Below are positions 11,381-22,618 of a stretch of 50,362 nucleotides of DNA, piece after piece (position 1 is the first letter of the stretch; each line of letters starts with the position of its first letter). Source of the DNA: a bacterium (GTDB lineage: Bacteria > Desulfobacterota > Binatia > UBA12015); assembly GCA_030430245.1 (NCBI GenBank), contig JAUIFY010000009.1:1-50362 (forward strand), read 5' to 3'. The notes beneath the pieces are model-generated. The model saw nothing but the letters and a program-made list of their open reading frames with translations, made no database searches and was not told the DNA's origin. Made by a program: the position numbers and the translations under genes.

Positions 11381-12241
11381 TCAGACCGACGGGGGCTCCG
11401 GCCGATCGATCGGCACGCAAACCCGAAACCCCGTTCCCTGTGCGCGATAGCGCCGGCTCGGCGTGGTGACGCTGCACGCGCTACGCACGTTCGCCTTGGT
11501 GTGATGCACCGAGTAGCCCCACGAGCCACCCTTCACCGTATGGAACTCGGAGAGCGCGGGGTCGCGGTCGTTGTACGGGCTGCTCGTCCATTCCCAGACG
11601 CCCCCGGACATGTCCACGCAGCCATACGGCGAGACGTTCCCGGGATGGTGACCGACCGCCGTGGGGTGGCCGTTGCGCCAGTACCAACCCGAGCGCGCAT
11701 ACTCTCGCGACACCGGCACGACGAGGGAGAACAGGAACGTGTCGAGCCCGACGGCGCCACGGCCTTGCCACTGGAGCTCGGGACGGGGCGGCTCGTTCCC
11801 CCACGGGTAGGTGCGGCCGTCGGTGCCTCGCGCCGCCTTCTCCCACTGCTCCTCGGTGGGAAGCGAGCACGGTACACCGATCCGATCGCTCAACCAGCGA
11901 CAGTAGGCCCATGCGTCGTCTTGCGAGACGTCCACGATCGCCAGCTCGGCGTGACGTGCCGGATAGGCCGCACAGGGCGCGTACGCGCGAACGAGCCTTC
12001 CTCGCCACCCGCCGACGACCTCGTACCACGAACCTTCCCAGGGGTAGCCGGTCGACACCAGGAAGCTCTGCCACTGCGCGTACGTCACCGGGACGCGACC
12101 CAACCAGAACCCCGGGAGCTCGAGCGACTGTACGGGCCGCAGCTCGCGGCACTGCGGCAACCGCTCGTAGCATTCCTCGGGGCCATAGAGGAACGCGCCG
12201 GCCGGCACGTAGCAGAAGTCCGCGGGCCAGTCGGGCACCAT
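11381..12241 (-). CDS. SUMF1/FGE-fold protein lacking the FGE active-site cysteines
   Basis: A 286-residue single-domain protein of the formylglycine-generating-enzyme/SUMF1 fold. Signature pieces are PVTYAQWQSFL, VSQDDAWAYCRWLSD, LPTEEQWEKAARG, TYPWGN, NVSPYGCVDMSGGVWEWTSS, VKGGSWGY and a C-terminal GTGFRVCV. In true FGE the copper-binding cysteine pair lies just after the GGSW segment in an SxLCHxSYC-like stretch. Here that stretch is SVHHTKANVRSAC, with neither cysteine in register. The protein is therefore probably not a sulfatase activator but one of the many SUMF1 proteins with binding or iron-dependent roles. It has no signal peptide. It is divergent from the flippase gene with 82 bases between. 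Confidence 0.85.
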   Translation of the reverse strand: MVPDWPADFCYVPAGAFLYGPEECYERLPQCRELRPVQSLELPGFWLGRVPVTYAQWQSFLVSTGYPWEGSWYEVVGGWRGRLVRAYAPCAAYPARHAELAIVDVSQDDAWAYCRWLSDRIGVPCSLPTEEQWEKAARGTDGRTYPWGNEPPRPELQWQGRGAVGLDTFLFSLVVPVSREYARSGWYWRNGHPTAVGHHPGNVSPYGCVDMSGGVWEWTSSPYNDRDPALSEFHTVKGGSWGYSVHHTKANVRSACSVTTPSRRYRAQGTGFRVCVPIDRPEPPSV

Positions 12242-12323: not shown

Positions 12324-13778
12324 ATGCGGCCCACCCTCGGCACCCAGATGACCGCCGGGATCGGCTGGATGCTGGCCAACCAGGCGATCTCGCGGCTCTT
12401 CGACATCGTGGGCCTGGTGATCTTCGCGCGCTTGCTCCCGCCCGCCGACTTCGGACTCTTCGCGATGGCGGTGCTCGTGAGCACGATCGTCGACATGCTG
12501 GCATCGTTCGATTTCGACCTCGGCCTCATCCAGAAGACCGACGCCGACACCCGCCATTGGAACGCGGCCTTCACCCTCACGTTGTTGCAGCGCCTCTGCG
12601 CCGCGGCTCTCACGGCGGCCGTGGCCAGGCCCGCCGCCATGGGATTGGACATGCCGCACCTGGAGAGCCTGCTGTACGCGATGGCGGCCAGCTCGGCGTT
12701 GCTGGGGCTGCAGAACATCGGAGTCGTGGATTTTCGACGACGCCTCGAGATCCGACGAGAGTTCTGGTTCCAGGTCGGCGGACGAGCAGCCGGCTTCGGC
12801 GCGACGCTGGGCTGCGCGCTTCTTTGGGCCAACGCGTGGGCCCTCGTCGCCGGATGGCTCGCCAACCGTGTGGCCTCGGTCGTCCTGAGCTATGCGCTCC
12901 ACCGGTTCCGTCCGCGCCTGCGACTGGACGCCGCGGCCGATCTTCTGCACTTCTCCAAGTGGCTGTTCGTCAAGAACGCGCTGTCCTACCTCAACCACAA
13001 GCTCGACGACCTCGTCGTCGCGCGGGCGGCGGGAGCCGCCATGGTCGGCCAGTACAGCGTGTCCTACGACATCGCCAGCATGGGAAGTACCGAGCTGGTC
13101 TTCCCGATCAACCGAGTGGCGTTCCCGGGGTACGCGCGCGCCAGCCACGATCGCGAAACGTTGCGCCGGTACTTCCTCAACGTGGTGTCCCATGTGGCGA
13201 TCCTGACCCTGCCGATCGGTGCCGGCACGGTCGTGTTGGCCGAGCCGCTGGTCACGGTCCTGCTCGGGGAACCCTGGCGTCCCGCCATTCCTTTGCTCCG
13301 GGTGTTCGGCCTGGCCGGAATGATCCACGGAGTGGTCGCCAACGCGGGGCCCGTGTACCTGGCCCTCGGCAAGCCCCAGATCAGCGCAACCTTCGCCGCC
13401 GCGCGCGTCCTGTCGTTGGCCGGCCCTCTCGTCTGGGCCACGACGACCTTCGGCGCGATCGGCGCCGCGTGGACACAACTCTGCTGCAACGTGGTCTTCG
13501 CCCCGATCACGTACGCGACGGTGGCGAACCTGCTCGACCTACGGCTACCCCAAGCGATCGCCGCGCTGTGGCGCCCTGCGGTGGCCGCAACCACGATGGC
13601 TGTCGTGATCTCGGGCTTCTCGGACTCGGTTGCCACGGTGATGGGATTGGCGCTGGTCATGGCCGGCGGGGCCGTGGCGTACGCCGTCCTTCTGATCGGG
13701 CTCTGGCTGCTGGCCGGCCGACCCGCCTCCGCCGAGCGCGAGATCCTGCGGTTCGTGACCACGCGACGAAGGAGGTAG
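12324..13778 (+). CDS. Wzx-like lipopolysaccharide/oligosaccharide flippase (MOP superfamily)
   Basis: A 484-residue polytopic membrane protein with about 12-14 hydrophobic segments. The start GIGWMLANQAISRLFDIVGLVIFARLLPPADFGLFAMA is characteristic of polysaccharide flippases of the WzxC/RfbX type, and KWLFVKNALSYLNHKLDDLVV marks the middle repeat. These proteins move undecaprenyl-linked glycans across the inner membrane. It lies upstream of the GT2 gene and the peptide-modification cluster, with only a HupE-like gene on the opposite strand between. It could serve a surface-glycan pathway or export a lipid-linked or peptide-conjugated product; no dedicated lasso ABC exporter is present in the window. 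Confidence 0.87.
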   Translation: MRPTLGTQMTAGIGWMLANQAISRLFDIVGLVIFARLLPPADFGLFAMAVLVSTIVDMLASFDFDLGLIQKTDADTRHWNAAFTLTLLQRLCAAALTAAVARPAAMGLDMPHLESLLYAMAASSALLGLQNIGVVDFRRRLEIRREFWFQVGGRAAGFGATLGCALLWANAWALVAGWLANRVASVVLSYALHRFRPRLRLDAAADLLHFSKWLFVKNALSYLNHKLDDLVVARAAGAAMVGQYSVSYDIASMGSTELVFPINRVAFPGYARASHDRETLRRYFLNVVSHVAILTLPIGAGTVVLAEPLVTVLLGEPWRPAIPLLRVFGLAGMIHGVVANAGPVYLALGKPQISATFAAARVLSLAGPLVWATTTFGAIGAAWTQLCCNVVFAPITYATVANLLDLRLPQAIAALWRPAVAATTMAVVISGFSDSVATVMGLALVMAGGAVAYAVLLIGLWLLAGRPASAEREILRFVTTRRRR

Positions 13779-13807: not shown

Positions 13808-15058
13808 CTAGAGGAGGTGCATCGCCAGGAACACCAGTCCCCCGGCGACGACCACCCCGCTGGTGACGCGCACCATCCACCGATCGCGTGTCGGCTCGCG
13901 TGCCAGCCACACGACGATCGGGAACACCGCGGCTGCGATCATCACCTGGCCGACCTCGACACCGGCGTTGAAGGACAGGAGCGAGAGCACGCGGCGAGCG
14001 CTCGGCAGGTGCAGCTGGGACAGCACGCTGGCGAACCCGAACCCGTGCACCGCGCCGAAGGCAGCCACCAGCAGCCAGCGACGTCGCCGCGGATCGAAGA
14101 AGAAGTTCTCCACACCGACGAATACGACGCTGATCGCAATCAACATCTCGACTCGAGACGTCGGCCGCGCCAGGTGTCCCGCCGCAACGAAAGCGAGCAC
14201 GATCACGACTCCCAGCCCTGCCGCCGCCGCCAACCTCCAGGGCAACCTCCAACGCGGCCCGTACTCGAAGACGATCACGCCCGCAGCCACAGCGATGGTC
14301 ACCTCGACCGCCACCGCCGCCGCTTCAGGGGTCTCGAGAACCGTGGCCAACACGAGAGTGAGCGAGTGGCCCACCGTGAACGCCGTGACCAGGGCCAGGA
14401 CTTGCCGCAGACGTCGCGTGAGCACGATCAGACCGATGAGGAAGAAGATGTGATCGTAGCCGATCAGGATGTGCTCGATGCCGGTGACCAGGAAATCGAA
14501 CGCCGTCGACGACGCCCCGGGCGGCAACGCCGGCACCTCGACGACGTAGTCGTTCCCCGTCAGCACCGCCTGCTGGATCTCGCCATCGGTTCGATCGATC
14601 TTGGCGAAGTGACGGTGCCAACCGGGCATTCGGCGGAGCAGGCCGACCGAGAGGACCAACTCGGTCGGCGCGGCCGGGCAGGTGTAGACGGATCGGACCT
14701 GGAGGCGCGCCCCCTCCTCGTCGACCACCATTCGCTCGAGCCGCGGGATGCACCCTCGACCATCCGCGTCGATCCGGATGGAAGAGCTCACGGCTTCGAA
14801 GATGGCCGCACGCTGCGATGCGACTTCGTCACCATCGAGCGCCCCGTTTCCATCGCGGTCGAACCCGCCCAGCGCCTCGGCGGCGTCGTTGGGGTCGAGA
14901 TCGAGGTGATGACTGACCTCGCGGCCGAAGATGGCGACGTCGGAGGTCGACTGACCCCGATCATGACCACGCGCGCCCTCGGGTGCGCCGAGCACCGAGA
15001 GGAGGACGAGCGCCGCGACGAGACTCCTCCGAAGTGAGGACGATTCGAATCCAGGCAC
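13808..15058 (-). CDS. HupE/UreJ-family membrane protein with N-terminal EF-hand
   Basis: About 416 residues from a GTG at 15058, chosen because it places a normal signal-like segment (RRSLVAALVLLSVLGAPEGARG) at the N-terminus. Longer in-frame starts (15190, 15217) would run into the divergent glycosyltransferase. Residues about 50-70 contain an EF-hand loop, DRDGNGALDGDE, after a short HHLDLDPND stretch. The C-terminal half has seven or so membrane spans with HILIGYDHIFFLIGLIVL, FTVGHSLTLVLA, VENFFF and FGAVHGFGFAS, the His/Asp motifs of HupE/UreJ_2 proteins, which are thought to move metal ions such as nickel. Neither hydrogenase nor urease genes are nearby, so the substrate is open. It is tail-to-tail with the flippase. 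Confidence 0.82.
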   Translation of the reverse strand: MPGFESSSLRRSLVAALVLLSVLGAPEGARGHDRGQSTSDVAIFGREVSHHLDLDPNDAAEALGGFDRDGNGALDGDEVASQRAAIFEAVSSSIRIDADGRGCIPRLERMVVDEEGARLQVRSVYTCPAAPTELVLSVGLLRRMPGWHRHFAKIDRTDGEIQQAVLTGNDYVVEVPALPPGASSTAFDFLVTGIEHILIGYDHIFFLIGLIVLTRRLRQVLALVTAFTVGHSLTLVLATVLETPEAAAVAVEVTIAVAAGVIVFEYGPRWRLPWRLAAAAGLGVVIVLAFVAAGHLARPTSRVEMLIAISVVFVGVENFFFDPRRRRWLLVAAFGAVHGFGFASVLSQLHLPSARRVLSLLSFNAGVEVGQVMIAAAVFPIVVWLAREPTRDRWMVRVTSGVVVAGGLVFLAMHLL

Positions 15059-15188
15059 GGCAGCGACGGCTTCGCCGGTGTGGAGATCGTCTTCGGCGAT
15101 CACTCGCTCCCGGCCGGCGCGTACGCTATCACGCTCTCCGGGCACGCTCAAAAGAGACACGGCGACGTGCCCATCCAGAGCGGCGGAC

Positions 15189-16109
15189 ATGACCGACAGT
15201 GCCGGGCCTTCTTTCACCGTCGTGATCCCGACCTACGAACGCCCGGCGAGCCTCGCCCGCTGCCTTTCCGCGCTGTCGCGGGCCTCCATGGCACGATCTC
15301 GGTTCGAAGTGATCGTGATCGACGACACCGGCCGGGCCACCCTGGATCACCTCACCTCCGACTTCCAGGAGATCGATCTGATGGTCCTGCGTCAGGACGA
15401 GCGTGGTCCGGCCGCTGCGCGCAACGCTGGGGTCGCAGCAGCCCGCGGAACGTTCGTCGCGTTCACCGACGACGACTGCGAGCCCTCCCCCGACTGGCTG
15501 CACGCCCTCGAACGACATCTGAAGGGAGACCCGACCCAAGTGATCGGAGGGCGCACCTACAACGCCGTGGTCGACGATCCCTTCGCCGAAGCCAGCCACC
15601 TTCTGGTGGAGTTCGTCTCCGCACGCCCTGACCGCACCGGAGCCCGGTTCTTCGCAAGCAACAACTTGGCGATGGCACGATCGACCTTCGAATCCGTCGG
15701 CGGCTTCGATGTCGACTACCGCCGCGCGGCCGGCGAGGACCGCGATCTCTGCGATCGCCTGCACCGCGCCGGCCACCGGATGCGCTACGCGCCCCGAGCG
15801 GTGGTTGCGCATCACCACTCGCTGGGACTGGTCGGCTTCGTCCGCCAGCACTTCGACTACGGCCGAGGGGCGCACCGTTTTCGATCCGGTCGGGCCCGGA
15901 GCCGCGCCGGCCGCCTCGAGTTCGAAGGCGCCTCGTTCTATGCCCGGCTGCTCACCGCGCCCGTCGGACGGGTGAGCCCGTGGCGTGCAGGCCCGCTGAT
16001 GGCGCTCATGGCCCTCTCGCAAGTGGCTGTTTTCGCTGGCTTCTCGTGGCAGGCGGTCGAGAGTCGCCGGGGAGGACGAGCAAGACGAGCGGACGGCGGC
16101 GGAGCGTAG
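15189..16109 (+). CDS. Family 2 glycosyltransferase
   Basis: A 306-residue GT-A enzyme. It opens SFTVVIPTYERPASLARCL, the nucleotide-binding start of GT2. The metal-binding Asp cluster is TDDDCEPSPDW near residue 97, preceded by RGPAAARNAGVAAARGTFV. The acceptor/base region is GGFDVDYRRAAGEDRDLCDRL with the GED motif. A hydrophobic stretch near the C-terminus (LMALMALSQVAVFAGFSW) suggests membrane association. The ATG at 15189 puts the first strand at residue 7; the 37 extra upstream residues do not look coding. It ends 91 bases before the lasso-leader peptide gene on the same strand, so it may be the first gene of that transcription unit. Donor and acceptor are unknown. Confidence 0.9.
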   Translation: MTDSAGPSFTVVIPTYERPASLARCLSALSRASMARSRFEVIVIDDTGRATLDHLTSDFQEIDLMVLRQDERGPAAARNAGVAAARGTFVAFTDDDCEPSPDWLHALERHLKGDPTQVIGGRTYNAVVDDPFAEASHLLVEFVSARPDRTGARFFASNNLAMARSTFESVGGFDVDYRRAAGEDRDLCDRLHRAGHRMRYAPRAVVAHHHSLGLVGFVRQHFDYGRGAHRFRSGRARSRAGRLEFEGASFYARLLTAPVGRVSPWRAGPLMALMALSQVAVFAGFSWQAVESRRGGRARRADGGGA

Positions 16110-16200
16110 CCTCGGCTTTCCTGATGTGGCATACTCCAGCGCCCTCGCGTCGAGCACCAGGACGCGGCGGACTTTCTGCTCAGACCGCTCGGAGGACGAC

Positions 16201-16290
16201 ATGAAGAAGCAGGAGAAGAAGAAGCCGTACGCGAAGCCGGAAGTGACGAAGCACGACCAGCTGTCCCAGATGACCTTCAGCTCTCACTGA
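16201..16290 (+). CDS. 29-residue lasso-type leader peptide with almost no core
   Basis: Too short for most gene finders but strongly supported: a perfect GGAGG ribosome site at 16191-16195, five bases before the ATG, and a flanking lasso-type gene set. The peptide is Lys-rich at first (MKKQEKKK), then PYAKPEV, which fits the YxxPxL/V motif that lasso B1/PqqD proteins bind, then a helical KHDQLSQM, then Thr24, which corresponds to the near-invariant Thr at the penultimate leader position. After the Thr only FSSH remains before TGA. A lasso core needs about 15 residues and an Asp/Glu at core position 7-9 to close the ring; neither exists here. The two Ser residues could be acceptors for the neighbouring kinase. 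No frameshift restores a longer convincing core. Confidence 0.75.
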   Translation: MKKQEKKKPYAKPEVTKHDQLSQMTFSSH

Positions 16291-16304
16291 AGTTCGGTTT
16301 CCTC

Positions 16305-16342
16305 GATCGACGGTCCCCCTACCGCGGAGCGGACCGTCGATC
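16305..16342 (+). promoter_or_regulatory. Perfect 12-bp hairpin between the leader peptide and nucleotidyltransferase genes
   Basis: The arms 16305-16316 (gatcgacggtcc) and 16331-16342 (ggaccgtcgatc) are exact reverse complements around a 14-base loop that contains accgcggagc. The hairpin starts 14 bases after the peptide stop and ends one base before the GTG of the next gene. There is no T-run after it, so it is not a standard terminator. It may protect the short upstream mRNA and lower translation of the downstream enzyme; the GGAG in the loop is the likely ribosome site for the GTG. Stem-loops between precursor and enzyme genes are known in proteobacterial lasso loci. Confidence 0.75.
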
Positions 16343-16343
16343 C

Positions 16344-17549
16344 GTGGACGACTCCTCCATGGACACCACGCGCCAGCTGGTGCGCGCGGTGGCTGCCGCG
16401 GACGAGCCCGAGGCGTTCGTCCACCAGTTCGAGGCGGCTGGCGGTGACTGGAACGACCTCACCGTGCGCGCCATGGTCATGGGACTGGCGCCCCTGTTGT
16501 TCGCACGGCTCGGCGAGCACGCCCCGGAGCGGATCCGCGCGCGGCTGGAGGCCAACCACCACGCGCACGCGAAGCGGTACGCGACCATCCGCGGGCAGCT
16601 GACCGAGCTGCTCACGGGTTGGAATGCGGCCGGATTGCGGCCGATCGCGCTCAAGGGCGTTCACCTCGCCGAACGAGTCTACGGCGATCCGGCCCTGCGT
16701 CCGATGAACGACATCGACGTCCTGTTCGCACCGAGCGAGCTCGCGACGGCCGAGCGGGTGCTCGCCGATCTGGGCTACCACGGAAAGCACCGTTCCCCCG
16801 AACGTGGTCCCGGCGTCGTCAAGCACACCAGCACCTGGAGGCGGGGAGACGCCGAGGCCGCATCCCCGAACCCCTACCTCTCGGGGGACGGAGAGCGAAT
16901 GGTCGAACCACACGGCTCTCTGAAGGAGCGTTGGTTTGGGCTCGAAGTCGACATCACACCCGGAGTGCGAGATCGAGCTCTGCCGATCGAGATCGGCGGG
17001 CAGCCATGCAGCGTCCTGTCCGCGGAAGATGCTTTGCTGCACCTTTGCGTGCACCTCTCCTTCAACCTGATCATGGGCCAGCCCTCGATGGTGCAGCTGA
17101 TCGACCTCGGCACGTTCACCGCGCGCCAATCGGTCGATTGGGAGACAATGGTGGCGCGCACCACGGCGCGCGGCGCGGCGGCGCACGTCCTGGCCAGTCT
17201 CGAGCTGGCCGCCGATCTATTGGCGGCTCCCGTACCGCAAGCCGCACGCTGGGGGTTGTGGGCCGCCGTGCCCCGTTCCCTGCATCGGACCGTCCGATCG
17301 GTGGGATTGCAGCACGTGCTACGCCGAACGCAGCAAGGCGCGATTCCCAATCTGCGCACGCGTCTCCGTCGCGGCCTCACCGATCGAGCCGCCGCTGCCG
17401 CGTGGGCCCCCGACCCGAGCACTCGCTGGAAAGTATGGCGCACGGCCTTCGCGTTCGTGCGCACGGACACCTGGCAGCAGCTATCGGCCATCCCGCAGAG
17501 CGGACGCGACGGCGGCCGGAACCGTCGAGACGTCGTCGGCGAGCCGTAG
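16344..17549 (+). CDS. Nucleotidyltransferase-fold protein (NTP_transf_5 type), lasso-tailoring-like
   Basis: 401 residues from a GTG at 16344 (an ATG at 16359 is the alternative). Features are LTGWNAAGLRPIALKGVHLAERVYGDPALRPMNDIDVLF, where GxxLAxxxYxDPxxRPMxDxD is the metal-binding pattern of this family, and EVDITPG further on, supplying another acidic strand. A helical all-alpha C-terminus follows. Family members occur with HprK-like kinases in lasso loci such as those of paeninodin and pseudomycoidin and in exopolysaccharide loci, where they are proposed to act on phosphorylated products. The 3' end overlaps the 3' end of the opposing kinase gene by 69 bases. It is probably co-transcribed with the leader peptide through the hairpin. 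Confidence 0.82.
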   Translation: MDDSSMDTTRQLVRAVAAADEPEAFVHQFEAAGGDWNDLTVRAMVMGLAPLLFARLGEHAPERIRARLEANHHAHAKRYATIRGQLTELLTGWNAAGLRPIALKGVHLAERVYGDPALRPMNDIDVLFAPSELATAERVLADLGYHGKHRSPERGPGVVKHTSTWRRGDAEAASPNPYLSGDGERMVEPHGSLKERWFGLEVDITPGVRDRALPIEIGGQPCSVLSAEDALLHLCVHLSFNLIMGQPSMVQLIDLGTFTARQSVDWETMVARTTARGAAAHVLASLELAADLLAAPVPQAARWGLWAAVPRSLHRTVRSVGLQHVLRRTQQGAIPNLRTRLRRGLTDRAAAAAWAPDPSTRWKVWRTAFAFVRTDTWQQLSAIPQSGRDGGRNRRDVVGEP

Positions 17550-18425
17550 CGCAAACCCAGGAGCGGCGGCGGCGAGCTGGCCCAGCACCGCGAGGTGGGG
17601 CGAGATCATGGACTTGTCCCACCCTTCGACGGCATGCGGAAGCATTCTTCGAATCGTGTCGGCTGCTCCGAGCGGTTCGAGGCGGTGGTCGGGACGCCTC
17701 TCGATCTCGGGGAAGAGAATCGCGCCCAAGGATGCGCTGTTCGCCCATACCTCCGGCCACACCGACTCCGCGGCGACGACGATCTTCCCGCGGCCGTCGG
17801 CGGCGGTCCCCGCAGCCAGGTGCCGGGTGCTCGCGAAGCGCGCGAGCGTGTCCGGAAACGCCGAAAGGCGTCCCGGATAGCTGAGGATCGACCCGGCTTC
17901 GGCGACGAGAGGAGAATCGTTCGAGAGCAGCTTCCAGCCGGCGTCGAGCAGGCTCATGCCCGTGGTGGTCTTCCCGGCCCCCACCCCCCCGACGATCAGC
18001 GCCGCGCGCCCCTCGCGGCACGCAGCGAACGCATGGATCAGGAAGCGACGACGACGTCGCAGGTGAGGGGAAAGGGAAACGGCCACGAGGTCCTCGAGAA
18101 CGCCGTACGTTCGGAGCGCGGCCGGAACGATCCGGAGAACACTCGTGGCCCCAGCCAGATCGATCTCGATCTGCCCGAACCGGGGAAAGTGAGCACGCAC
18201 GAAGTCGCTGTCGACGTAGTAGTGCAACAGCGCCCCCTGCGAGAAGTCTGGAGCCCGATCGGGGGCCGCCGGCGCTCGGTCCACGATTCGCATGCGACAA
18301 CGGATGCCGACACCGTCGCTCGGTGCCCGCGGCGCGGACGCGAAGATCGATTGCCAGGCCGCACACCCCGCGTCGTCTCCCTCGACCGACACACGCAGGC
18401 CGTGCAGATCCCAGCTCGACACCAT
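17481..18425 (-). CDS. HprK-like (HPr kinase/phosphorylase-related) kinase
   Basis: 314 residues from ATG 18425. The P-loop is VGGVGAGKTTTGMSLLDAGW near residue 144, followed by LSNDSPLV, matching the HprK C-terminal kinase domain (Walker A, then the metal-binding Asp). The N-terminal half, with HYYVDSDFVRAHFPRFGQIEIDL, is typical of HprK-related proteins in peptide-modification and exopolysaccharide loci rather than true HPr kinases. Related enzymes in paeninodin-type lasso clusters phosphorylate the C-terminal Ser of the precursor. Here the precursor tail is FSSH, so Ser phosphorylation is a plausible function. The gene is divergent from PqqD (60 bases; a ctcgcgcgag palindrome at 18455-18464) and overlaps the nucleotidyltransferase tail-to-tail. 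Confidence 0.85.
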   Translation of the reverse strand: MVSSWDLHGLRVSVEGDDAGCAAWQSIFASAPRAPSDGVGIRCRMRIVDRAPAAPDRAPDFSQGALLHYYVDSDFVRAHFPRFGQIEIDLAGATSVLRIVPAALRTYGVLEDLVAVSLSPHLRRRRRFLIHAFAACREGRAALIVGGVGAGKTTTGMSLLDAGWKLLSNDSPLVAEAGSILSYPGRLSAFPDTLARFASTRHLAAGTAADGRGKIVVAAESVWPEVWANSASLGAILFPEIERRPDHRLEPLGAADTIRRMLPHAVEGWDKSMISPHLAVLGQLAAAAPGFALRLADDVSTVPAAVASALRDGR

Positions 18426-18485
18426 GGCGCGTTCTTCGTACACCGACCTGGTCCCTCGCGCGAGGAGCTGTGCTAGAGAGCAACG

Positions 18486-18764
18486 ATGGAGGTGAACGAT
18501 CAGACGGTATTGCGGCGGTCGGACGGTACGACGTTCGAAGTCGCCGCCGGGGAAGCGATCGTGATCGACCTGGACAGCGGCACGTACTTTTCGCTCAACG
18601 AGGTGGGAACGGTCTTCTGGCAGCGCCTCGACGGCCGACAGACGCTTCGGGAACACGCCGAGGCCATCGCGACGGACTACGATGTGGACGTCTCCGTGGC
18701 CGTCGCCGACCTCATCGAGCTCACGGCGCGACTTCGCGCAGAGCGACTGGTGGACGTCGGTTGA
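18486..18764 (+). CDS. PqqD-like RiPP leader-recognition protein (lasso B1)
   Basis: A 92-residue stand-alone PqqD/RRE domain. It contains VVxDLDSGTYFSLNEVGTVFWQ in slightly varied form (residues about 20-42), the beta strands and helix that bind leader peptides, and ends in a winged-helix-like DLIELTARLRAERLVDV. In lasso pathways this B1 protein grips the YxxP motif of the leader and presents it to B2 and the cyclase. The leader peptide at 16201 carries such a motif. The gene sits directly before B2 (TGA to GTG, 4 bases), giving the usual B1-B2-C order. Confidence 0.9.
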   Translation: MEVNDQTVLRRSDGTTFEVAAGEAIVIDLDSGTYFSLNEVGTVFWQRLDGRQTLREHAEAIATDYDVDVSVAVADLIELTARLRAERLVDVG

Positions 18765-18768
18765 TCGA

Positions 18769-19254
18769 GTGACGCGGCTGCGACACGTCATCCAGGCGCT
18801 GAGGTTGTTGCCGCGGCTCGCGTTCGCTCGGCAACGTGCGCTGCTCGTGGAGCTGAGGACGTTCTGTCGACGACTCCCCGACCTCCTGGAGCAGCCCCTT
18901 CCCGAGGCGATGGCCGAGATCACGCCGGAGGTCGGCCCGAGTGAATGGTCGGCCGACGAGCTGCGAGACCTCGCCGACGTCGCGGCCTTGATGGTTCGCG
19001 ACTCGCCACTCGCGCTGTGCCTGCGGCGCTCCTTGACCCGATACAGGGTCTTGCGACGAGCGGGGATCCCGGTGGTCGTGCAGTTCGGCGCCAAGCGGGC
19101 GGGGACACCGCGACCCGACACGCTGACCGGTCACGCCTGGCTGACCCTGGACGGCGCTCCCTACCACGAGCCGGACGACCGGTGGGCCGCATTCACCCCG
19201 ACGTACCGCTACCCGCCGAGCGGCGACGTCCCCGGGACGGATCACGCGGGGTGA
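18769..19254 (+). CDS. Lasso peptide biosynthesis B2 protein (transglutaminase-like leader peptidase)
   Basis: 161 residues from GTG 18769, the only start that gives a compact protein beginning after the PqqD stop. Residues about 92-100 read SPLALCLRRSL with the catalytic Cys, followed by RVLRRAGIPVVVQFGAKR and then LTGHAWLTLDG with the catalytic His and a downstream Asp, the transglutaminase-like triad of B2 proteases. Family members cut the leader after the conserved Thr-X pair. In this locus the cut would release only about three residues, so either cleavage happens elsewhere or the substrate is unusual. It ends four bases before the AsnB-like gene. Confidence 0.88.
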   Translation: MTRLRHVIQALRLLPRLAFARQRALLVELRTFCRRLPDLLEQPLPEAMAEITPEVGPSEWSADELRDLADVAALMVRDSPLALCLRRSLTRYRVLRRAGIPVVVQFGAKRAGTPRPDTLTGHAWLTLDGAPYHEPDDRWAAFTPTYRYPPSGDVPGTDHAG

Positions 19255-19257
19255 GTC

Positions 19258-21108
19258 GTGTGCGGCTTGGCGGGCGTCGTGGGAGATCGGGAGGTCGCGT
19301 GCCGCTTGCCGACCGCCGTCGAGGCCCTCCGCCATCGCGGGCCGGATGACGAAGGTGTGTGGGCGGCCGATGGCGTGGGACTCGCCGCGACCCGATTGAG
19401 CGTCATCGATCTCGAGCACGGCCAACAGCCCATGACGGATGCAGCGGGCACATCGGCCGTGGTCTTCAACGGCGAGATCGTCAACGCATCGGCGTTGCGC
19501 GCGGAGCTCGAGGCCGCCGGACGGGTCCTGCGCACCCGCTGCGATACCGAGGTGGTCCTGCATGCCTACCTCCACTGGGGCGACGACTTCGTCACTCGCC
19601 TGCATGGGATGTTCTCGCTGGCACTCTGGGACGGCGAGCGTCGCCGCCTCGTCCTGGCCGTCGACCGGTTCGGGATCAAGCCGCTCTTTTGGACCCGCCG
19701 GGGGAACCGACTCGCCTTCGCTTCGGAGCCGGCTGCGCTGCTCGCTCTCGTACCGGATCTCTCGCACGGCACGGATGTCGCGGCCTTGTCCACCCTTCTG
19801 GAGATCGGCTTCTGCCTACCTCCGTCGACGCCGTGGGCAGGTGTGCGACAGCTCGCCCCCGGTCACCGACTCGTATGGCAGGACGGGGCGCTCGAGCACG
19901 CCCGTTGGTGGGAGCTCTCGCCGCCACCCGACGGAACCCCGACCGTTTCCCGCCGCGAGGCGGCGCGGGCTCTTCGTGACGAGCTGTGGAAGACGGTTGC
20001 GGCCTGGCGGACCAGCGATGTCCCGGTGGGCTCCCTGTTGTCGGGAGGCCTCGACTCGAGCACCGTCGCCCGCCTGCTCACCGACCAGACGGAGCACCCC
20101 CTTCACACCTTCACCATCGGTTTCACGAACCCGCGCTACGACGAGACCCAGCATGCCGACCGAGTCGCCCGCGCGCTCGGGACTCGACACCATCGCGTGA
20201 CGTTCGACGATCGCAGCTTCGACTCCCTACCCGAGGTCGTTCGCCACCTCGGAACACCGCAGTGCGCGGCCACGGCAGTGCCGATCTACCACCTCTATCG
20301 CACGTGTCGCGAAGCCGGCATCAAGGTGGTGATGACGGGAGAAGGGGCGGACGAGCTGTTCGGCGGGTACCACTGGTTCACGGGCGACGGGTTGGCCCGG
20401 GGACTCCTGCGGGCGCCCCGCGCGCTGCGGCGCGTCGCGCGGCTCGGTCCGATGTCCGCTGCAGCGCGGCGCGTCTTGACCGCCGACCCGGGTGACGCGG
20501 TCGACCGGTACGTCGAGTGGATCCGGGTGGGCTCCCCCGCCGTCGTCTCCAGGTTGCTCGGCCGCACCTCGGACCCCGTCCCCGACCTCTTTCGGGATGC
20601 GCTCGGCCGCCGTCTCGACGGACGGGCACCCGTGGATCAGTTCACCCTCCTGGAGCTGACGGGTCGTCTCCCCGCGTTCATCAACCTCACCGTCGACCGC
20701 ATGAGCATGGCCCACGGCGTCGAGGCCCGTCCGCCGTTCCTGGACCACCGGCTGTGGACTCACGTGACCTCGCTGCCGACCAGGCTCCGCCCGGGCAAGG
20801 CGCTGCTGCGAGACGCGATGACGGGCTCGCTACCGCGACCGACCCTGCACCGCGCCAAACGAGGGTTGGCCACTCCCCATGCCACATGGTGGCGACAGGG
20901 ATCCCTCCCGGAATGGGCCGAGGACGTGCTCACCCCGCGCGCATTCGCCGGCGTGGGGCTGATCGACGGGGAGCGGTTCGCCGCGCTGCGGCGCGAACAC
21001 GTCGCCGGAACCGATCGCAGCGGATTGCTCACCGGCGTCCTGACGACGCAGCTGTGGGCGGCGGCGGGCGGAGAAGCAGGTCTTTGCGGATGTGGGCCGG
21101 ATTGCTAG
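19258..21108 (+). CDS. Asparagine synthase-like enzyme (lasso cyclase C type)
   Basis: 616 residues from a GTG that puts Cys at position 2 (MCGLAGVVG), as needed for the N-terminal nucleophile of class II glutaminase domains. The glutaminase part has RHRGPDDEGVW, RLSVIDLEHGQQPM and FNGEIVN. The synthetase part has the ATP-pyrophosphatase loop SLLSGGLDSSTVA near residue 260 and GEGADELFGGYHWF near residue 360. True AsnB makes asparagine; homologues beside B1/B2 genes are lasso cyclases that adenylate an Asp/Glu side chain. Gene order here favours the latter. With no acidic core residue in the neighbouring peptide the acceptor is unclear. Sulfated or glycan loci also carry AsnB paralogues, an alternative. 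Confidence 0.88.
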   Translation: MCGLAGVVGDREVACRLPTAVEALRHRGPDDEGVWAADGVGLAATRLSVIDLEHGQQPMTDAAGTSAVVFNGEIVNASALRAELEAAGRVLRTRCDTEVVLHAYLHWGDDFVTRLHGMFSLALWDGERRRLVLAVDRFGIKPLFWTRRGNRLAFASEPAALLALVPDLSHGTDVAALSTLLEIGFCLPPSTPWAGVRQLAPGHRLVWQDGALEHARWWELSPPPDGTPTVSRREAARALRDELWKTVAAWRTSDVPVGSLLSGGLDSSTVARLLTDQTEHPLHTFTIGFTNPRYDETQHADRVARALGTRHHRVTFDDRSFDSLPEVVRHLGTPQCAATAVPIYHLYRTCREAGIKVVMTGEGADELFGGYHWFTGDGLARGLLRAPRALRRVARLGPMSAAARRVLTADPGDAVDRYVEWIRVGSPAVVSRLLGRTSDPVPDLFRDALGRRLDGRAPVDQFTLLELTGRLPAFINLTVDRMSMAHGVEARPPFLDHRLWTHVTSLPTRLRPGKALLRDAMTGSLPRPTLHRAKRGLATPHATWWRQGSLPEWAEDVLTPRAFAGVGLIDGERFAALRREHVAGTDRSGLLTGVLTTQLWAAAGGEAGLCGCGPDC

Positions 21109-21124: not shown

Positions 21125-22618
21125 ATGGGCGAAACCGTCTTCCTCGTGAATTTCCGCAACAGGTCGGAGTTCTATCCGCCGTTCGGGATCATGTATGTGG
21201 CCGACGCGCTCGAGCAGGCGGGCTTCGCGACCGAGTTGGTGCACGACACCGCCGAAGGCATCGACGCGCTGGTCGAACGGGTGGCGGCCGAACGTCCGCT
21301 CTTCGTCGGGTTCTCGACCATCACGGGCCCGCAGCTGCGACCGACCATCGAAGCGTCCGAACGAGTTCACGCGCTCGGAGTGCCCGTGGTGTGGGGCGGT
21401 GTGCACGCGAGCATCATGCCGGCCGAGATCCTCCGCGAGCCGTACGTCGATCACGTCGTCGTCGGCGAAGGAGAGGAGACCGTTCAGGAGCTGGCTCGCA
21501 CCCTGGCGGCGCAGGACACGAGCGGCATCCCGATCGATCGCGACGAGCCCATCCTCGGGCTGGCCAGCAAGCGCGGGGACGGATCGACGACGCTTGGGGG
21601 TACCCGCCCGTTCATCGACGACCTCGACCGCTTCCGCCCCCGTTGGGACAAGGTGGACGTCGAGCGCTACCTGATCCCGAGCGGCCCGTATCGCCGCGCC
21701 ATCCCGGTCTACATCTCGCGCGGCTGCCCGTTCCGATGCGGCTTTTGCTACAACGAAGTCGTCATGAAGCGCACGTGGCGTCAGCACAGCGACGCCTTCA
21801 TCGTCGATCAGATCCAGATGCTCCGAGACCGACACGGCATCGACGCGGTCGACTATGCGGACGACTACCTCTTCGGGCGCCCCAAGCCGATGAGGCGTCT
21901 GGTGGAAATCGTCGGGATGCCGTGGAGTGGTCAGGTCCGCGTTCAACTCCTCTCGAAGGAGTTCGTCGGATGGATGAGGCAGACCCGCTGCCAGTGGGTC
22001 AACGTCGGCGCCGAGTCCGTCTCCCAGCGGATGCTCGACCTGATGAGCAAGGATCAGAAGGACTGGCAGGTGCCGTGGGGGATCCGAAATCTGGTCGAGG
22101 GAGCGCCAGACATCGAAGCGAACGTTTCTTTCATCGTCGGGTTGCCACACGAGCGCCCCGAGGACGCTCGGGCGAATCTCGACGGCATCGAGTACCTCTG
22201 CGGTCTCAGCAGGAACGTTCGCTGCTCGGTCAGCATGTACATGCCCTACCCGGGGACGCCCCTGTGGCAACGAGCCCTCGAAGCCGGATACGAGCCGCCG
22301 TCGACCCAATCGGGTTGGGCCGAGCTCGATCTCGACCGGAGCAACACACCGTGGATGGACGACGCCGAAGCCCGTGCGATGTCCTCCATCAACGACGTCC
22401 TGTTCGTGGGTCGATCCGAGGGGCACTGGGTGCTGTGGCCCTATTACGCGCTGCTTCGCCGGCGATGGCGCACGGGGAACTTCCGGCACTACTGGGAAGG
22501 GTGGATGAAGGAGCGCCTGCTGCAGTCACCAGCACGTCCGCTTCTGCAGTGGGCCATCGACCACCTCGTGCGGTTCAACGCGGCGACTCACAAAGGGCCG
22601 ACGTCCGAGGCCGGCTGA
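21125..22618 (+). CDS. B12-binding-domain radical SAM protein
   Basis: 497 residues from ATG 21125, 16 bases after the AsnB-like gene. Residues about 1-130 look like a cobalamin-binding Rossmann domain (PPFGIMYVADALEQAGF, then VVWGGVHASIMPAE and VVVGEGEETVQELA), although the His-on-cobalt DxHxxG motif is not obvious. The radical SAM core starts YISRGCPFRCGFCYNEV, with the CxxxCxxC iron-sulfur motif, and continues VNVGAESVSQRMLDLM and FIVGLPHE. Such enzymes methylate or rearrange unactivated carbons in natural products, lipids and cofactors. Position makes it a likely tailoring enzyme of the leader-peptide locus. The last 31 bases overlap the opposing SGNH gene. Confidence 0.87.
   Translation: MGETVFLVNFRNRSEFYPPFGIMYVADALEQAGFATELVHDTAEGIDALVERVAAERPLFVGFSTITGPQLRPTIEASERVHALGVPVVWGGVHASIMPAEILREPYVDHVVVGEGEETVQELARTLAAQDTSGIPIDRDEPILGLASKRGDGSTTLGGTRPFIDDLDRFRPRWDKVDVERYLIPSGPYRRAIPVYISRGCPFRCGFCYNEVVMKRTWRQHSDAFIVDQIQMLRDRHGIDAVDYADDYLFGRPKPMRRLVEIVGMPWSGQVRVQLLSKEFVGWMRQTRCQWVNVGAESVSQRMLDLMSKDQKDWQVPWGIRNLVEGAPDIEANVSFIVGLPHERPEDARANLDGIEYLCGLSRNVRCSVSMYMPYPGTPLWQRALEAGYEPPSTQSGWAELDLDRSNTPWMDDAEARAMSSINDVLFVGRSEGHWVLWPYYALLRRRWRTGNFRHYWEGWMKERLLQSPARPLLQWAIDHLVRFNAATHKGPTSEAG

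Follow-up and report, generated by a model that had tools for sequence, protein, structure and literature searches.

The window analyzed here, a 50,362-nucleotide stretch of contig JAUIFY010000009.1 (GenBank assembly GCA_030430245.1) from a bacterium of the Desulfobacterota class Binatia, encodes a 29-residue precursor peptide and a set of enzyme genes around it (Table 1). The peptide gene is followed after 53 bases by the gene for an NTP_transf_5 enzyme, then by an HprK-like gene on the opposite strand, and finally by genes for PqqD, B2, AsnB, and a B12-binding radical SAM enzyme in one run. Profile searches confirmed the PqqD, B2, AsnB, HprK-like, and NTP_transf_5 families that a first-pass annotation had called from the sequence; the genes on that list were right, but those for the B12-radical SAM enzyme and an FGE-like protein had been missed. 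Equivalents of the Shine-Dalgarno sequence precede nearly all related peptide genes among the aligned relatives.

Table 1. Features of the peptide locus and its neighborhood in the window.
Feature	Position	Strand	Remarks
FGE-sulfatase-fold protein (PF03781)	11381..12241	-	Nearest NCBIfam models SenA/EgtB, far under cut-off
MOP/Wzx-type flippase	12324..13778	+	Glycan neighbor; system membership uncertain
HupE/UreJ-like permease (HupE_UreJ_2 membrane protein)	13808-15217	-	Between flippase and GT2
GT2 glycosyltransferase, likely accessory	15078..16109	+	MftF model TIGR03965 165 bits, cut-off 280
Shine-Dalgarno GGAGG of the peptide gene	16191..16195	+	Five bases before the start
Precursor peptide, 29 aa, MKKQEKKKPYAKPEVTKHDQLSQMTFSSH	16201..16290	+	ORF list, leader-pattern scan, alignment of relatives
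Predicted core Ser-Ser-His	16279..16287	+	Lasso-register cut Phe26/Ser27, the cut itself inferred
NTP_transf_5 nucleotidyltransferase-fold enzyme	16344..17549	+	PF14907 E 2e-46; usual gene after the peptide
HprK-like P-loop protein, peptide-system clade	17481..18425	-	GAGKTTTG; LLSNDSP replaces the usual xxDD
PqqD / B1-type RiPP recognition element	18486..18764	+	PF05402 3e-16
B2 transglutaminase-like leader peptidase	18769..19254	+	NF033537 41 bits (cut-off 33); Transglut_core3
AsnB-type amidotransferase, N-terminal Cys glutaminase site intact	19258..21108	+	
B12-binding radical SAM enzyme (CPFRCGFC)	21125..22618	+	Alternative GTG start 21092

The precursor ends in Thr-Phe-Ser-Ser-His-stop, with no Asp or Glu past the leader. 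Counted back from the Phe26/Ser27 bond, Tyr occupies position -17, with Pro, Val, and Thr at -14, -12, and -2, respectively, both in the window and in every aligned relative. The YxxPxL motif of characterized lasso leaders spans -17 to -12, with Thr at -2 (PMC10368454), and the YxxPxV leader with a conserved Thr described in the first-pass annotation matches this register (Y-17xxP-14x[LVI]-12 plus Thr-2) exactly. The Tyr-17/Pro-14/Thr-2 register, together with the catalytic residues kept in B2, leads to the predicted core Ser-Ser-His, before which B2 should cut. A ring-forming N-terminal residue, an Asp or Glu at position 7-9, and a threading tail, all expected of a lasso precursor, are missing. 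The peptide is not a chance open reading frame: in the 6.3 Mb window genome, the leader pattern without the tail matches once and its reversed control not at all, and the same search found no other leader-bearing precursor there.

We scanned 84,980 species genomes for the pattern Y..P..[V/I/L]..H..L...TFSSH-stop and found 19 loci in 18 genomes, exclusively Chloroflexota (Anaerolineae, Caldilineae, and unplaced members), although the query demanded the tail and relatives with other tails could be under-sampled. The chance expectation, estimated from the information content of the pattern, is ~0.1 loci. Viral contigs gave no matches. The Chloroflexota peptides are mostly 21-25 residues long (e.g., MYKKPAITKHEELTQVTFSSH), within a range of 21-29 residues over all copies; they frequently occur as tandem pairs, and their genes typically lie directly 5' of the NTP_transf_5 gene. 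A leader scan with the tail left free, covering 21 genomes (those 18 of Chloroflexota, that of the window, and two further NTP_transf_5-positive ones), returned 25 matches, 25/25 ending in TFSSH-stop, versus a single match for the reversed control. Each of the 19 peptide genomes contributed one or two matches and the two further NTP_transf_5-positive genomes none. The ending without a ring-closing Asp or Glu, which had already drawn attention in the window, recurs in the relatives: FSSH-stop follows Thr in all 24 distinct DNA copies, the window's included, with F, S, S, and H invariant, while at six other positions of the leader between three and six different residues occur. The second Ser is encoded by both AGY and TCN codons, indicating that selection acts on the protein. 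Alignment of the peptides, suggested earlier as a check on the tail, found TFSSH constant in all copies, and no relative found has a core of 15-20 residues.

Independently of the tail, we used the NTP_transf_5 clade as the query in one family and one order. Its members occur in 13 genomes, with a TFSSH peptide in 11/11 that have intact upstream sequence; in the remaining two (G972 and G1177), which would have been independent tests, the contigs are broken at the peptide position. In a genome with a more distant NTP_transf_5 match (G1056; 1.6e-44), the TFSSH peptide was not found. In several metagenome-assembled genomes (L243, L246, and L240), the contig reaches no farther than the peptide gene or breaks off just short of it; tandem peptide copies may be what disrupts the short-read assembly.

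The enzymes directly around the peptide belong to familiar families. The NTP_transf_5 enzyme has a predicted nucleotidyltransferase-type fold (pLDDT 87), for which a fold search returned only weak nucleotidyltransferase matches (ANT(2'')-Ia best, E 3e-3; LnuA). A PDB sequence search with this enzyme and the HprK-like protein gave no matches. The HprK-like proteins of the system form one clade (SH-aLRT 100) that keeps the P-loop but has Asn replacing the first of the two Asp (DD) present in most relatives; kinase activity is doubtful because of this substitution. Both the B2 leader peptidase and the PqqD-type B1 expected of a lasso locus are present (NF033537 and PF05402), yet the B2s of the system, in which Cys84, His122, and Glu134 are invariant, constitute a clade of their own (98), separate from 24 B2s that belong to lasso loci.

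AsnB departs from the lasso scheme. The window protein scores 197 bits against the lasso cyclase model NF033535 (cut-off 525) and 391 bits, under cut-off, against TIGR03108. All full-length AsnBs of the system, that of the window among them, have an intact N-terminal Cys, NGE, and GEGADE/SDE synthetase motif (GEGADEL.GGY), whereas AsnBs adjoining ordinary lasso B2s have Ser or a different residue at the Cys position and lack NGE. Because the glutaminase site is kept in the former and lost in the latter, the system AsnB is probably a glutamine-dependent amidotransferase. The NF033535 score and the intact glutaminase active site led us to reject it as a lasso cyclase, the AsnB homologue that acts as macrolactam synthetase in lasso loci. 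The ‘complete lasso-peptide gene set’ of the first-pass annotation accordingly did not hold up, with AsnB failing on both score and active site, and HprK and B2 falling in their own clades. Ordinary lasso clusters occur separately in some TFSSH-system genomes; one, at L179:4771-5760(-) in a Chloroflexota genome, has five tandem precursors.

Two further enzymes travel with the peptide. The window B12-radical SAM enzyme is 59-69% identical to its orthologues in the system, which are found in 17/19 peptide genomes versus 3/33 other genomes searched; these three contain other system genes on contigs that end before the peptide position. The FGE-like protein shares 53-68% identity with proteins encoded next to this peptide system in Chloroflexota. 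It carries HH near the C-terminal GGSWGY motif, which we take to replace the cysteine pair of FGE, and its structure model is mediocre (pLDDT 70). SenA and EgtB, its nearest models, are enzymes acting on histidine. The HupE/UreJ-like protein, used as a query for a recurring metal-transport gene, had no homologue in the other fetched loci. DUF5693 proteins neighboring the Chloroflexota loci have strongly His-rich stretches in 10/14 full-length members and lack them in four; the loops (L119, L240, L245, and L246 among them) reach 28 His in 60 residues. Searching the literature for DUF5693 gave no matches.

The neighborhood comparison proposed in the first-pass annotation recovered the same peptide with the HprK-like/PqqD/B2/AsnB/NTP_transf_5 set in Chloroflexota. 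A B2-family protein is present in 18/18 Chloroflexota genomes and the divergent window type in 16/18, typically in the arrangement HprK(-) followed by PqqD-B2-AsnB. The fullest loci, given here as a composite of L161, L165, and L240, run from the peptide through NTP_transf_5, DUF5693, and FGE-like genes (with a second NTP_transf_5 and a DrrAB-like ABC pair) to B12-radical SAM, HprK(-), PqqD, B2, AsnB, and Exo_endo_phos. DUF5693, the ABC pair, and Exo_endo_phos are absent from the window. The window HprK-like protein nests inside the Chloroflexota HprK clade, although the contig comes from another phylum. At its left end, the contig encodes a ferredoxin-oxidoreductase-type protein that is 72-85% identical to proteins of same-genus genomes, 70-85% when same-family genomes are included, and at most 42% identical to those of Chloroflexota, making a misassembled or contaminating contig unlikely. 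Among the 147 other genomes searched in the window's class, none yielded a close HprK orthologue. The placement of HprK in a Chloroflexota clade, on a host-type contig and without a close orthologue in the class, suggests horizontal transfer between phyla as the simplest explanation.

What these loci share, at the level of sequence, is an invariant-TFSSH peptide beside NTP_transf_5 and a dedicated HprK-like/PqqD/B2/AsnB/B12-radical SAM/FGE-like clade. We favor, with moderate confidence, a RiPP-type pathway whose three-residue core is constant, in place of a broken lasso cluster; the pathway would be a previously unnamed one that probably yields one fixed small molecule from Ser-Ser-His. In the proposed scheme, PqqD would bind the Y..P.[VIL] leader and offer the tail for tailoring; Ser-Ser-His (or Phe-Ser-Ser-His) would be modified by the radical SAM, FGE-like, and NTP_transf_5/HprK-like enzymes; and the glutamine-dependent AsnB would convert a carboxylate into a carboxamide, most simply at the C-terminal His, since the predicted core has no other carboxylate. 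B2 would cleave after Phe26, freeing a small modified Ser-Ser-His product that, in Chloroflexota, may be exported through the DrrAB-like ABC pair of the fullest loci. As the core does not vary, a molecule of fixed function (a cofactor, metal ligand, or cell-surface component) seems more likely than a diversified antibiotic. The evidence thus favors the short constant core of the ‘new, very short modified peptide’ over the other options listed in the first-pass annotation, and the modification is predicted. Free Ser-Ser-His is an ATCUN (X-X-His) motif that binds Cu and Ni. A more specific and distinctly tentative proposal, unlikely as it stands, is that H2N-Ser-Ser-His freed by B2, amidated by AsnB, and further tailored would act as a Cu(II)/Ni(II) ligand, either exported or bound to the surface, i.e., a ribosomal three-residue metallophore; the cleavage register, the invariant His, the His-rich DUF5693 loops, and the HupE/UreJ-like permease of the window are hints in this direction.

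In its logic, the pathway is comparable to that of mycofactocin, which has as its core the two C-terminal residues (Val-Tyr) of a 31-residue precursor (PMC7491314). Mycofactocin, like PQQ, combines a short precursor and an invariant C-terminal core with a PqqD-like chaperone, a radical SAM enzyme, a dedicated peptidase, a glycosyltransferase, and one fixed product; the TFSSH system differs from it in the peptidase, the B12-type radical SAM enzyme, and the core. The locus is not a mycofactocin cluster, with no MftA-F family above cut-off and the GT2 short of the MftF threshold. The phosphorylated or glycosylated lasso peptides paeninodin, pseudomycoidin, and Bsf share with the TFSSH system the leader motif and register and the PqqD/B1, B2, HprK-like, and NTP_transf_5 families, but the latter lacks the acceptor Asp/Glu and the 15-20-residue core, its AsnB is not a cyclase, and its HprK-like and B2 proteins form separate clades. 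HPr-rel-A systems (TIGR04352) pair HprK-like proteins with PqqD in glycan loci, but their HprK belongs to a different clade, and the link to them raised in the first-pass annotation was not borne out (30.3 bits versus a cut-off of 200).

Closer relatives are the linear polyphosphorylated peptides (LPPs) of Bacillota (PMC13381572), which likewise have a discrete RRE, an HprK-like kinase, an NTP transferase, a Y..P.V..H leader, often no cyclase, and a polysaccharide-locus setting. To these LPPs add an SpI-type peptidase and long variable cores, whereas the TFSSH system, found in Chloroflexota and one other phylum, has a B2 peptidase, a constant three-residue core, a glutaminase-competent AsnB, and the B12-radical SAM and FGE-like enzymes. 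Judged by family assignments, the HprK-like, NTP transferase, and RRE components of an LPP appear to be in place; the variable C-terminal core in a 35-200-residue precursor is not (21-29 residues, constant tail), and no signal-peptidase family was found among the ORFs scanned around the cluster for an SpI-like leader peptidase. Since LPPs rely on an SpI peptidase and have long variable cores, the TFSSH system is a distinct relative of LPPs rather than a member. That it could nonetheless be a short, ringless LPP-type peptide, with the HprK-like kinase phosphorylating a core Ser for decoration by NTP_transf_5, is improbable: the shared components and the two Ser of the predicted core agree with it, but the B2 and constant tail, the lost Asp of the DD pair, and the additional AsnB, B12-radical SAM, and FGE-like genes do not.

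A somewhat unlikely alternative to the freed Ser-Ser-His product is an uncut carrier or primer, in which constant SSH would be the attachment point for, e.g., a glycan built by NTP_transf_5 and glycosyltransferases, with later trimming. A constant tail would suit a carrier; many loci have GT2s, flippases, and many-TM proteins close by; and PsmN, an NTP_transf_5 homologue, adds hexoses to phospho-Ser in pseudomycoidin (PMC9266682). Yet a B2 with its catalytic residues is kept in nearly every genome, the leader sits in the lasso cleavage register, and glycosyltransferase content varies by locus, with GT2 in only 8 genomes. The ‘leader as cofactor’ and ‘glycan-linked’ readings of the first-pass annotation are possible because glycosyltransferases and flippases are often nearby. 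AsnB-type amidotransferases are also found in EPS loci, and the sub-cut-off TIGR03108 score of the window AsnB points the same way. These observations, with glycan genes close by, are compatible with a leader that only activates or scaffolds enzymes acting on another substrate, e.g., a surface glycan, but such a role requires the leader, and the strictest conservation falls on the C-terminal TFSSH, which renders it very improbable. To a degraded lasso cluster whose precursor has lost its core we give almost no credence: genes of the B2, PqqD, and AsnB families are all there, but the same tail and intact enzymes recur in 18 Chloroflexota genomes, AsnB is not cyclase-like, and some of these genomes have their ordinary lasso clusters elsewhere.

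Other peptide families were seen alongside. In three genomes of the window's class, peptides ending in FDP[T/Q]LPLAE-stop, apparently a constant tail, occur at L037:6708-6872(+), L104:8550-8669(-), and L102:6611-6772(+), adjoining PqqD, HprK-like, and GT2 genes, and also B2 in L037 and L104. Tandem arrays of five and six lasso-type leaders of ~30 residues with short variable Ser-rich tails, at L095:10334-11228(+) and L097:9587-10860(+), respectively, adjoin PqqD, B2, B12-type radical SAM, and HprK-like genes without AsnB; they are likely a multi-substrate cousin of the TFSSH system.

Genome mining would probably label TFSSH loci as lasso clusters whose precursor is missing or broken, because a gene of 21 residues is easily overlooked. 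The system is suited to testing the so far unexplained connection of HprK-like/NTP_transf_5 proteins with RREs and surface glycans. If the constant-core pathway is correct, it would represent a RiPP class that uses lasso-type leader recognition and proteolysis to make a single tiny, fixed molecule in place of variable peptides.
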